Program-made: the position numbers and the translations under genes
NCBI GenBank assembly: GCA_024276495.1
Contig: JAJRXC010000085.1
Location: 1-48,129 of the forward strand
DNA length: 48,129 nt
From: Actinomycetes bacterium
GTDB lineage: Bacteria; Actinomycetota; Acidimicrobiia; Acidimicrobiales; Aldehydirespiratoraceae
Reading direction: 5' to 3'
The notes under the pieces: model-generated
What the model saw: the letters and a program-made list of their open reading frames with translations, nothing else
Told to the model about the DNA's origin: nothing
Database searches by the model: none
Shown: positions 17,568 through 23,985 of the stretch, piece by piece
Layout: each line of letters begins with the position of its first letter
How positions within the stretch are numbered: position 1 is the stretch's first letter

Positions 17568-17984
17568 ATGAAGCTCACAATCGTCTACGACAGCCGTACC
17601 GGCACGACCGAAGCAGCCGCCAAGGAGATGGCGGAGATCGCACAGGCGGCCGGCCACGACGTCAGCACCGTCGCCGTGCAGTCGGCCACGCCCGAGGACA
17701 TCGCCGCGGCGGACGCGGTGTGCATCGGCAGCTGGACAGAGGGTCTGTTCTTCTTTCGTCAACACGCAACCAAGGCCACGATGGACTTCATCTCGGCGCT
17801 CAGGCTCGACGGCACGCCGGCGGCGGTGTTCTGCACCTACAAGACCTCCCCCGGGAAGCTCCTCGAAAAGATGGCAGCCGCGCTCGACGAGCGCGGCGCG
17901 AAGACAACCGGCCGGTTCCGGTCACGGGGCCGCCACGCCCCCGAGGGTTTCCGCGACTGGCTCGAATCGGTTCCCGTCGGCTGA
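17568..17984 (+). CDS. Flavodoxin-domain protein
   Basis: The 138-aa protein begins M-K-L-T-I-V-Y-D-S-R-T-G-T-T-E, the flavodoxin FMN-phosphate loop (S-x-T-G-T-T). It continues with the flavodoxin core (V-C-I-G-S-W-T-E-G, A-V-F-C-T-Y) and ends after the last helix. GGAG at 17558-17561, 6 nt before ATG 17568, decides the start over several upstream in-frame codons. It lies 54 bp upstream of the GrdB/PrdB-like selenoprotein gene on the same strand, so it may be its electron donor (inference). A possible promoter with the -42.5 palindrome lies upstream. Confidence 0.85.
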   Translation: MKLTIVYDSRTGTTEAAAKEMAEIAQAAGHDVSTVAVQSATPEDIAAADAVCIGSWTEGLFFFRQHATKATMDFISALRLDGTPAAVFCTYKTSPGKLLEKMAAALDERGAKTTGRFRSRGRHAPEGFRDWLESVPVG

Positions 17985-18038: not shown

Positions 18039-18959
18039 ATGAAACGGACAACGACGGACGACGAGACCCGCATTTCGGTCACGCACCGTACGCCGGTCAG
18101 CTACATCGACAAGTCCCGCGAGTTCTACGCCGCCCAGGGCTACCCGACGCCGTACCGTTGGGCCGCGAATGTCGGCGCGCCGTTCACGCCGGTGACCGGA
18201 CCGCTCACCGACATGACCGTCGCGATCGTCACGACCGCGTTCCCCGTGGAGGCGCGCGGTCCGAAGCGAGCGTATGCGCAAGCCTGCGAGCCGTTCCCGG
18301 CGGCGATGGCGACCGACGATCTCTCATGGGACAAGGACGCGACCCACACCGACGATGTGGCTACCTTCCTGCCTCTTCGCCACGTCCGTTCGTTGGCGAC
18401 CCGGCACGTCGTCGGGGAGCTCGGGCCGCGCTTCTACGGTGTTCCCACCGAGTACAGCCGGCGTCGAACCGAGCTCGACGCTCGACAGGTCGAACAATGG
18501 GTCCGTGAGGACGGTGTCGACCTCGTCCTGCTGGTCCCGCTCTGACCCGTTTGCCACCAGACCGTGAGTCTGGTCGCGAGACACCTGGAGTCCGTCGGGA
18601 TACCGACGGTCGTCATCGGCAGCGCCCACGACATCGTCCACGAGGTCGGCGTCGCCCGGTTCGTATTCGTCGATGTTCCCCTCGGCAATCCGTGCGGCCC
18701 TCCCGACGATCCCCGAACCCAGGAGTCGGTCGTCGAGCTCGCCCTGCAGTTGGCGGTGAGCGCCATCGCGCCCCGCACCGTCGTGCAGGCGCCGGTGACC
18801 TGGCCCTCCGACGAGTGGCGCGACGTCTACATGCGGGTCGGTTCGTCGGCCACGACCTCCCGATCCGGGACCGGGAATCGGTCGAACATGCGCACCTTCG
18901 GACAGCCCACCCGGCGGCCCTCGTCACAACGGGGACAGGCCCAGTCGTCGTCGCCGTGA
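18039..18959 (+). CDS. GrdB/PrdB-like reductase, probable selenoprotein (Sec at codon 169, TGA 18543-18545)
   Basis: Residues 1-168 match the GrdB/PrdB-like 'glycine/sarcosine/betaine reductase selenoprotein B' family: P-V-S-Y-I-D-K-S-R-E-F-Y, G-Y-P-T-P-Y-R-W-A, W-D-K-D-A-T-H-T-D-D-V-A-T-F-L-P and G-V-P-T-E-Y-S. The frame then meets TGA at 'L-L-V-P-L-TGA-P-V-C-H-Q-T' and continues in frame with the rest of the family (L-V-A-R-H-L-E-x-x-G-I-P-T-V-V-I-G-S, P-L-G-N-P-C-G-P-P-x-D-P, W-P-S-D-E-W). Reading TGA as selenocysteine gives a U-x-x-C redox pair (Sec169, Cys172). A 7-bp hairpin follows at bacterial-SECIS distance. ATG 18039 has GGTGA 5 nt upstream. Conserved sequence ends near 18840; the last 40 codons overlap the ferredoxin gene on the other strand and may be tail without function. 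Substrate unknown. Confidence 0.85.
18556..18574 (+). promoter_or_regulatory. Bacterial SECIS-like hairpin after the in-frame TGA
   Basis: ACCAGAC-CGTGA-GTCTGGT: a perfect 7-bp stem with a 5-nt loop whose second base is G. The loop begins 17 nt after the TGA. Published bacterial SECIS rules ask for an apical loop roughly 16-37 nt from the UGA with a G in its first two positions; this hairpin meets both. Confidence 0.7.
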
Positions 18960-19255
18960 CGCCACAGCGGCCCGCCGCACACCTCGCAGCGTTCGCCGAA
19001 GATGTTGCACTCGACCCGGGCCAGGCGGGTCGAGCCAAGCGGACAGCCGCGACCGCGACACACGACCCAGTCCGGGTCCGGCACGATCGCGTCCTCCGGG
19101 CATTTCGGCAGGCAGTCGGTGCACCCGTCGCAGCGATACGGGTCGATCGCGAACAACCCGAGGAACGAATCCGTCTTGGCCAGGGCCCCGGTCGGACATG
19201 CGTAGTCGCAGGCCCCACACCCGATACAGAGGTTCTCCAGGACCTTGAAGGTCAT
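18827..19255 (-). CDS. Ferredoxin with two 4Fe-4S motifs and a C-terminal zinc-ribbon-like segment
   Basis: The 142-aa protein begins M-T-F-K-V-L-E-N-L and has two complete 4Fe-4S motifs: C-I-G-C-G-A-C-D-Y-A-C-P (about residues 10-21) and C-D-G-C-T-D-C-L-P-K-C-P (about 42-53). A second, less usual half follows with C-R-G-R-G-C, a C-E-V-C-G...C-P-R-C ribbon and one more Cys, giving far more cysteines than a simple ferredoxin. It is the last gene of an overlapping operon (ATGA with the preceding small gene). It is the obvious electron carrier for the diiron oxygenase at the operon start (inference). Its last 133 bp overlap the 3' end of the convergent selenoprotein gene. Confidence 0.88.
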   Translation of the reverse strand: MTFKVLENLCIGCGACDYACPTGALAKTDSFLGLFAIDPYRCDGCTDCLPKCPEDAIVPDPDWVVCRGRGCPLGSTRLARVECNIFGERCEVCGGPLWRHGDDDWACPRCDEGRRVGCPKVRMFDRFPVPDREVVADEPTRM

Positions 19256-22710: not shown

Positions 22711-23985
22711 TCAGGGCAGGATCCGCGACTCCGGCTTGAACGTCCCCCACGCGAACCAGAAGCTGTCGTCGACATCGATGCCGTCGAGCGTCTGGCCCTC
22801 GAGCGGTCCGGCGGTGCTCTCGCCGAAGATGTTCCACGTCGAACCGGTCTCGGCGTCGATGAACTCGCCGTCGGCGGCGGTGAAGGTGAGCCGTTGGCCG
22901 TCGTCGGCGAACGGTGCGTAGGCAGCCGCGGCGCCGACGTCACGCCCGAACTCGATCTGGCTGGTGTCAAGCGCCGACGCCGTGCCCGCCTTCGCGAAGA
23001 CCACCACCGCCTGACCACCGATCTCAAGGTCCATCACCTGCTGCGCGAGGAGGTCCTCGCGGACGATCGCGACATCGTCACCATTGAGGGAGATGCCGAG
23101 AATCCGGGTCTTGGCCGCCAGTCGGGGGTCGTTCTCCCCGTCGAAGAGAAAGGGGCTGGTGTTGACGTCGTCGTAACCGGGATACGGATTGCGCCCGTAG
23201 TCGCGGGAGAAGCCGGTCTCGGTTGACAAAACGAGTGCGTCGGGTTGCGCGTCGCGGAAGTCGGCCCAGGACACGACCCGCATGGGAAAGGTCTCCAGAG
23301 TGGTGCCGGTCAGGGCGCCGACAACCGCCTGATTGGTGAACTGGATCCACAGCGATTCCGTCTGTCGGTCGTACATGACGAGGTTCGAGCGGTAGAGGGC
23401 GCCGGACGTGCCGAAATCGAGGAGGCGGTCACCGACGGCGCGATCGAACGCGAAGGCCGAGTTGCACAGCGGGCAGTAGGTGATGCTGACCGGCGTCCCG
23501 GCGACGACGTCGTTCACGATCTCGTGCCAAACGAGGATCTGGATCGGATACGCCCGCGTCTCGTCACCGATCGTGAGCGCCGCCACCGGCTCGTTGTCCT
23601 GCAGATAGTCGACCGCGCACGCCGGAAGGAAGAGCGGCTCGTCGATCGGGGGGATCCCGTCGGGCGGTGGACCGCCGGACCGGATGTCGCCGAGCTCGAC
23701 GAGCGGTGCGGGAAACGCGTCGGAGCTCGCGTCGCGCAGGGCCGAGGGCACGTCCTCGCGGGGGCCGGGGGTGACACGCTCGGCCGGTTCGGTGTCGGCC
23801 GTGCACGACGCCGCGACCGGGCCGGAATCGATCGCGGCGGGCGCGCGTTCCGCATCGGCCCCCCGCTCCTCGCCGTTCGACGCGGCGCACGCCGCCGCGA
23901 GTAGCCCGAAAGCGAGGACCACGAGAAGCAGCCGGTACCGCGTCGGCGGGGGAGAAGGCCGATGCGCGTCCGTCGTTGTGGTCAT
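22711..23985 (-). CDS. DUF3179-family lipoprotein
   Basis: The 424-aa protein has a lipoprotein signal (L-L-A-A-A-C, Cys33). The DUF3179 core follows: 'I-P-P-I-D-E-P', 'A-Y-P-I-Q-I-L-V-W-H-E-I-V-N-D', 'V-S-I-T-Y-C-P-L-C-N-S-A-F-A-F-D', 'F-G-T-S-G-A-L-Y-R-S-N-L-V-M-Y-D-R-Q-T-E-S-L-W', and 'R-D-Y-G-R-N-P-Y-P-G-Y'. The C-P-L-C-x-S motif may bind metal or take part in thiol chemistry; the family has no established function. It overlaps the TlpA-like redoxin gene by 4 bp (ATGA), suggesting that the redoxin keeps this exported protein reduced (inference). Confidence 0.9.
   Translation of the reverse strand: MTTTTDAHRPSPPPTRYRLLLVVLAFGLLAAACAASNGEERGADAERAPAAIDSGPVAASCTADTEPAERVTPGPREDVPSALRDASSDAFPAPLVELGDIRSGGPPPDGIPPIDEPLFLPACAVDYLQDNEPVAALTIGDETRAYPIQILVWHEIVNDVVAGTPVSITYCPLCNSAFAFDRAVGDRLLDFGTSGALYRSNLVMYDRQTESLWIQFTNQAVVGALTGTTLETFPMRVVSWADFRDAQPDALVLSTETGFSRDYGRNPYPGYDDVNTSPFLFDGENDPRLAAKTRILGISLNGDDVAIVREDLLAQQVMDLEIGGQAVVVFAKAGTASALDTSQIEFGRDVGAAAAYAPFADDGQRLTFTAADGEFIDAETGSTWNIFGESTAGPLEGQTLDGIDVDDSFWFAWGTFKPESRILP

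Follow-up and report, generated by a model that had tools for sequence, protein, structure and literature searches.

Whether a TGA codon inside a gene marks its end or encodes selenocysteine (Sec), and what kind of protein would result in the latter case, are the questions raised by a locus in an Acidimicrobiales genome (assembly GCA_024276495.1, the source genome). The open reading frame (ORF) lies within a stretch of 48,129 nucleotides, here called the window. It opens with an ATG at 18039, runs for 168 codons to a TGA at 18543-18545 (codon 169), and continues beyond it in the same frame as P-V-C-H-Q-T-V-S-L-V-A-R-H-L-E up to a TGA at 18957-18959. A first-pass annotation made from the sequence alone proposed that the gene encodes a GrdB/PrdB-like selenoprotein; the coordinates and flanking peptides it gave for the TGA were both exact on re-translation. 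The central features are as follows:

18039-18959, plus strand: PrdB-like ORF of a predicted selenoprotein, 306 residues with TGA read as U; conserved family part approximately residues 15-270 (translation and aligned relatives)
18543-18545, plus strand: UGA codon 169, predicted selenocysteine and first residue of U-P-V-C-H; TGA in 52 of 53 close relatives and TGC in one, with a matching TGA in three paralogs
18552-18554, plus strand: codon of the proposed resolving Cys172 (U-x-x-C), with His173 next; invariant across a 46-sequence alignment
18556-18574, plus strand: predicted bacterial SECIS hairpin; 7-bp stem (18556-18562/18568-18574), loop CGUGA (18563-18567), 17 nt from UGA to loop

The in-frame TGA, its hairpin and the selenocysteine machinery

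Relatives were sought in a genome collection covering 84,980 species using residues 1-168 only, i.e. the part before the TGA, so that the downstream sequence provides an independent test. The 53 loci recovered are mostly from Acidimicrobiales, whose MAGs are the closest named relatives, with others from records titled Chloroflexi/Dehalococcoidia, Deltaproteobacteria, and Gamma-, Beta- and Alphaproteobacteria. A family member from a deposited strain, Quisquiliibacterium transsilvanicum DSM 29781 (L073), carries TGA. P-V-C-H follows codon 169 in all 53, placing the TGA inside one continuous protein family, as the first-pass annotation had held. Its suggestion to look for Cys or Sec at residue 169 of homologues revealed 52 TGA codons and a single TGC, in a Dehalococcoidia locus (L067). 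The Sec/Cys pairs that it anticipated thus amount to one among the close relatives, with two further Cys forms on annotated plasmids. Similarity to homologues extends to both sides of the UGA, which aligns with UGA or Cys, the pattern expected of a selenoprotein. Nineteen further loci of relatives, one of them counted already, all have TGA.

The codon is equally constant within the class. In a sample of 198 class genomes, 54 contain the family (63 matches at E ≤ 0.001), and the Sec codon, read in all 63 matches, is TGA in 61, Ala in two and Cys in none. The two Ala copies (L120 and L121, in G158 and G194 of one genus) are of a paralog type and keep the downstream Cys; they have apparently lost Sec while keeping the fold. 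Motif variants occur among the TGA copies: L158 (G138:C77), of the same order, has its TGA within the GrdB-type motif U-G-T-G-T-R-C-G, and nine class loci (L135, L139, L140, L145, L147, L149, L152, L154 and L155) form a subtype with U-P-D-C-C instead of U-P-V-C-H. The source genome itself holds three paralogs of 33-38% identity with TGA at the matching site, two with U-P-V-C-H and one with U-P-L-C-T. Five clear PrdB-like copies per genome are found in G209, G216, G236 and G246; raw counts of six in G216 and G246 are inflated by an antisense match and a fragment.

Bacterial SECIS elements, according to criteria in the available text of one source, have a loop of 3-9 nt, a stem of 4-16 bp, a G in the first two loop positions, a distance of 16-37 nt from the UGA and an MFE ≤ -7.5 (PMC13188914). 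The hairpin at 18556-18574 lies within all of these ranges, with a loop of 5, a stem of 7, the G in position, 17 nt of spacing and a predicted mRNA fold after the UGA of -16.3 kcal/mol. Its stability against shuffles is unremarkable (z -1.66; 15 of 200 shuffles equally good), and it is the comparison of loci that is informative. Across 71 distinct sequences, a set that includes 19 class loci, standard pairs fill 94.4% of pair cells, against a mean of 64.2% and a maximum of 69.0% in 300 rounds of synonymous codon resampling. All seven pairs are intact in 50 of the 71 sequences, compared with at most seven sequences in the resampled sets, and at least one pair is missing in the other 21. Sliding the 3' side of the stem by 1-3 positions leaves at most 52% of pair cells, and a G falls within the first two loop positions in 71 of 71. 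The stem is kept with differing letters across loci through double changes (e.g. CAGAC/GTCTG, GTGTC/GACAC and GCGCAC/GTGTGC). Together, these patterns constitute strong evolutionary evidence for a SECIS hairpin whose pairing appears to be kept by covariation. The Cys form L067 retains five of the seven stem pairs; of the class loci examined subsequently, 5-7 pairs are present in 23 and 6 in three. The nine U-P-D-C-C loci have 1-3 of 7 pairs in the register of the hairpin, and for most of them folding predicts another hairpin a few bases downstream.

A search for selA, selB, selC and selD, also suggested at first pass, recovered the complete machinery in the source genome, every component scoring over its cut-off. 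The tRNA-Sec (64.6 bits) is recognized by ARAGORN as SeC with anticodon tca, SelA (394.9 bits) and SelB (275.3 bits) are adjacent on contig 79, and SelD (368.6 bits) has an in-frame TGA of its own. This SelD (L027, G000:C48) is a Sec form, with the sequence FSHGAG-U-GCK. SelA exceeds the cut-off in 134 of the 198 class-sample genomes, being present in 50 of the 54 that carry the family versus 84 of the 144 others (Fisher p 1.1e-6, relatedness ignored). The four family-carrying genomes with no detectable SelA (G158, G174, G188 and G194) are 64-80% complete; copies in G174 and G188 still have TGA, and the only two non-stop copies in the class sample are the Ala copies of G158 and G194.

Given the TGA conserved in relatives, the hairpin, the Sec machinery and the three TGA paralogs, ORF 18039..18959 almost certainly encodes a selenoprotein, and Sec at UGA 169 is the only economical reading of the compared sequences. 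The first-pass proposal on this point is therefore borne out by tRNA-Sec, SelA, SelB and SelD, by readthrough in relatives and by the covarying hairpin. A codon-usage score for in-frame TGA genes across the window ranked this TGA merely 4th of 272 candidates; the score does not discriminate and was set aside.

Placement within the GrdB/PrdB superfamily

The affinity with GrdB and PrdB holds at the level of the superfamily. The best NCBIfam match is PrdB (TIGR04483, E 3.8e-19), but its 69.1 bits fall far short of the 300-bit cut-off. BLASTP against Peptoclostridium PrdB (L103) gives 28% identity over 218 columns, including a shared U-x-x-C-H motif in what is evidently the same domain. GrdB-type NCBIfam models match through their own last third only, at approximately 30-34 bits; TIGR01918 (GrdB) scores 30 bits where 65.45 are needed, over profile positions 279-429 of 431 only. 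The C-terminal third of GrdB is thus homologous; the 431-position GrdB profile has a different N-terminal part. A Pfam search of the ORF 18039 protein returned no match, including none to PF07355 (GRDB); this model matches 25 of the 46 aligned members at E ≤ 0.1, the best at 6.4e-6.

A tree of 37 proteins places the ORF 18039 protein and 15 relatives in one group (88/92). A 100/100 branch separates this clade, along with Cys proteins of Haematobacter and Roseomonas, from annotated PrdB (L103 and Ligilactobacillus L160) and every other paralog type in the tree. The tree is rooted for display only, the two PrdB rows deviate in letter make-up, and two of 16 intended class loci (L152 and L154) are absent, having been missed by motif. 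Actinomycetota, Chloroflexota, Myxococcota and Pseudomonadota are the phyla represented in the tree. The Haematobacter and Roseomonas plasmid proteins (L101 and L102), sister to the clade, are 42-43% identical over 80-86% of the protein, but have Cys (TGC) in place of Sec; their NCBI name is 'glycine/sarcosine/betaine reductase selenoprotein B family protein'. Within the clade, the motifs D-x-P-L-G-N and U/C-P-V-C-H are invariant (46 sequences); P170, V171, C172, H173, D198, D212 and P214-P218 do not vary, and position 169 is U, or C in L067.

No pyruvoyl partner was detected. GrdE (PF09338) was found in none of the six genomes tested, while a positive control, the Ligilactobacillus plasmid, gave three matches. 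PrdA gave no match in the source genome (97.4% complete, 4.0% estimated contamination, 111 contigs) and 928.6 bits in the same control plasmid, which carries a proline reductase cluster with prdA two genes upstream of prdB. Arguments from gene order call for caution, since the 10.6 kb surrounding the Peptoclostridium prdB likewise contain no listed prdA. On these comparisons, the protein falls in a clade of the GrdB/PrdB superfamily that stands alone and appears distinct from D-proline reductase: the first-pass label stands for the superfamily, but the protein would be neither PrdB nor GrdB.

Neighbouring genes, the C-terminal tail and integrity of the locus

Three further features of the window surround or overlap the end of the ORF:

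17568-17984, plus strand: flavodoxin-like gene, 54 bp upstream of ORF 18039 (PF00258, E 5.3e-10); association not seen in relatives
18827-19255, minus strand: ferredoxin-like gene (Fer4 matches), convergent, with a 133 bp overlap with the ORF end; association not seen in relatives
18846-18959, plus strand: C-terminal tail without family similarity, antisense to the convergent ferredoxin gene (last ~37 residues)

Alignment to relatives is lost after approximately residue 270, and the family's normal C-terminal tail is missing; relatives extend 106-146 residues past the Sec codon (median 127; 50 of 53 loci, those not cut by a contig end). Residues 269-304 match the antisense of the ferredoxin of G216, a genome of the same family. 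G216 keeps a ferritin-like/SCP2-like/ferredoxin operon (88/68/74% identity) with no PrdB-like gene beside it, which, together with the antisense match, points to a tail that arose by accident and to a neighbourhood of local extent. Within its genus, moreover, the gene occurs patchily. Six other same-genus genomes yield only matches of 29-34% identity, and likewise lack a close copy of the ferredoxin neighbour; copies at 48-61% do occur in certain other genera of the same family and order. With its tail replaced by antisense sequence and no close copies in these six genomes, the ORF 18039 copy may be undergoing decay, although no damage is seen in its conserved part.

The absence of close same-genus copies and the 4.0% contamination estimate raised the possibility that the window contig is misbinned. 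Three stretches of the window correlate in tetranucleotide make-up at 0.981-0.985 with five other stretches of the source genome, including contigs bearing Sec genes, compared with 0.844-0.970 for ten stretches of other genomes; misbinning is consequently not favoured.

Two alternative readings of the locus turn on this evidence. If the TGA were a sequencing error or the nonsense mutation of a pseudogene, the altered tail and patchy occurrence would be readily explained; against it, the same TGA recurs in relatives from several phyla and in the three paralogs, followed by a hairpin that covaries, in a genome with complete Sec machinery. As an account of the whole family this reading is refuted, and for the codon at 18543 it is extremely improbable. 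The first-pass annotation further envisaged a redox module formed with the flavodoxin and the opposite ferredoxin operon, to which the short 54 bp same-strand spacing and the convergent ferredoxin gene lend some appeal. However, none of the flavodoxin, ferredoxin, SCP2-like and ferritin-like genes was found (tblastn E ≤ 1e-5) in 72 other loci, comprising the 53 relatives, three plasmid records and 16 class loci (15 holding other subtypes), many of them with short flanks, and the G216 operon does without a PrdB-like gene. A dedicated module of this kind is improbable. The preferred reading is that of a genuine selenoprotein gene in a local neighbourhood.

Elsewhere, the gene families beside the clade of ORF 18039 recur in at most 8 of the 53 named loci and the genome's own loci, mostly among close relatives. 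L045 (Actinomycetota) and L068 (Pseudomonadota) have a CoA-transferase III gene immediately upstream, and L039 and L044 an acyl-CoA-ligase-like gene immediately downstream; all four are of this clade. Of 19 fetched loci, 18 of them belonging to other subtypes, 7 have a crotonase gene directly adjacent on the same strand; 14 of 730 called proteins are crotonases. The crotonase genes adjoin paralog-type PrdB-like genes (L106, L107, L108, L111, L112, L114 and L022), overlapping them by 4 bp in L111 and L112. Pfam ECH_1 is confirmed for L107, L111, L112 and L114. Three of the crotonase-adjacent loci belong to one genus and two to another, and this shared ancestry weakens the adjacency to crotonase and acyl-CoA genes, which as a clue to substrate is a lead only. 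The window also contains, at 22711-23985 on the minus strand, a DUF3179 gene (PF11376, E 1.1e-103) with C-P-L-C; Sec members of the DUF3179 family are listed in the available text of one source (PMC13188914).

Predicted structure, possible chemistry and significance of the family

An AlphaFold2 model of residues 1-276 of the window ORF (46-row alignment) has a pLDDT of 89.0 and a pTM of 0.88, and positions residue 169 between a strand (162-166) and a helix (170-185). Neither a sequence search of the PDB (best E 0.031, not credible; no solved relative found) nor Foldseek against the PDB (nothing at E ≤ 0.001) identified a relative. In VIA-align 2, LacI-type and other Rossmann-like domains reached Z scores as high as 9.0, possibly reflecting just a common arrangement, and the modelled fold would at most be a Rossmann-like layout. 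Thioredoxin folds were not among the structural matches listed, which carries no weight.

A mechanism can be proposed by analogy. With the hairpin 17 nt downstream as a guide, SelB and Sec-tRNA would decode UGA 169 to give a probably soluble product of ~300 residues with the U-P-V-C-H active site at a helix start of a Rossmann-like domain. The Sec selenolate would attack an electrophilic small-molecule substrate and reductively displace a group, and Cys172 would resolve the resulting intermediate by forming a selenenyl-sulfide, which a cellular thiol or a donor of the thioredoxin type would then reduce. The clade would function without a pyruvoyl subunit, the absence of which means that substrate activation must come by other means. 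The models for this scheme are PrdB and GrdB, and FarB: in the text available for these sources, GrdB is described as binding glycine and releasing ammonia and PrdB as taking part in reductive ring cleavage (PMC13188914), and the Sec of FarB is predicted to attack the C-F bond of fluoroacetate (PMC10838667). Readthrough, the SECIS hairpin, the Sec machinery, the separate clade and the lack of a detectable partner are each documented by genome comparison. Reductase chemistry, drawn from a remote similarity to PrdB (28% identity), is reasonably likely, and for a thiol or thioredoxin-type electron donor the chances are about even. Taken as a whole, a genuine selenoprotein of a standalone, pyruvoyl-independent clade with a Sec/Cys reductive mechanism is very probably the best explanation.

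Two other accounts of its function bear on this conclusion. A helix that opens with U-x-x-C is a typical feature of thiol redox enzymes. Together with the lack of a conserved partner gene, this makes an antioxidant enzyme, a Sec-dependent thiol/peroxide or thiol-disulfide oxidoreductase, the main rival to a substrate reductase; it is the less probable of the two, the protein's superfamily kin using small amino-acid-like substrates where the available text of the sources describes them (PMC13188914; PMC10838667). Far less probable is that the protein is a genuine PrdB or GrdB subunit of a D-proline or glycine-type reductase and acts together with a pyruvoyl partner. TIGR04483 is the best NCBIfam match, the Peptoclostridium protein shares the motif, and an annotated PrdB may evidently stand without an adjacent prdA, but the score falls far below the cut-off, neither PrdA nor PF09338 is found in the source genome by searches that detected the positive control, and the 100/100 branch sets the clade apart. 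The standalone pyruvoyl-independent reductase accordingly remains the favoured account.

Sec 'PrdB' proteins of this kind are already known, having been recorded from ocean metagenomes since 2005. In the available text of the respective reports, they rank third in abundance among known families in the Sargasso Sea, with 42 genes (PMC1088965), the GOS data hold 235 Sec and 110 Cys 'PrdB' sequences (PMC2398784), and proline reductase is listed for 110 organisms (PMC5029168) and for Anaeromyxobacter (PMC1794560). The ocean family resembles the present one in its UxxC motif, TGA, PrdB-like sequence and wide distribution; it differs in being filed as PrdB, and was compared here by description only (PMC1088965; PMC2398784). 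The GOS sequences likely belong to the clade of ORF 18039. The first-pass description of such a gene as unusual was hence overstated, 'PrdB' selenoproteins being among the commonest in ocean metagenomes. Among the papers listed, our literature search found no account of such proteins in Acidimicrobiia, no described function without PrdA and no named substrate. Tentatively, and with the balance leaning slightly the other way, the standalone clades may be Sec reductases that need no pyruvoyl subunit, each acting on a small-molecule substrate of its own and some in acyl-CoA catabolism, and that form a distinct enzyme class misnamed proline reductase.

These findings have consequences for how the family is annotated and studied. 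As the first-pass annotation foresaw, standard gene calling truncates the ORF 18039 protein, and it probably does the same to hundreds of similar ones, while the name 'proline reductase' hides that no required partner was found in the six genomes tested. The deposited strain Q. transsilvanicum DSM 29781 makes the family testable. The family is widespread and multiplied within genomes, and Sec is nearly always kept in the loci read, which indicates that some selenium-dependent reaction is being retained.
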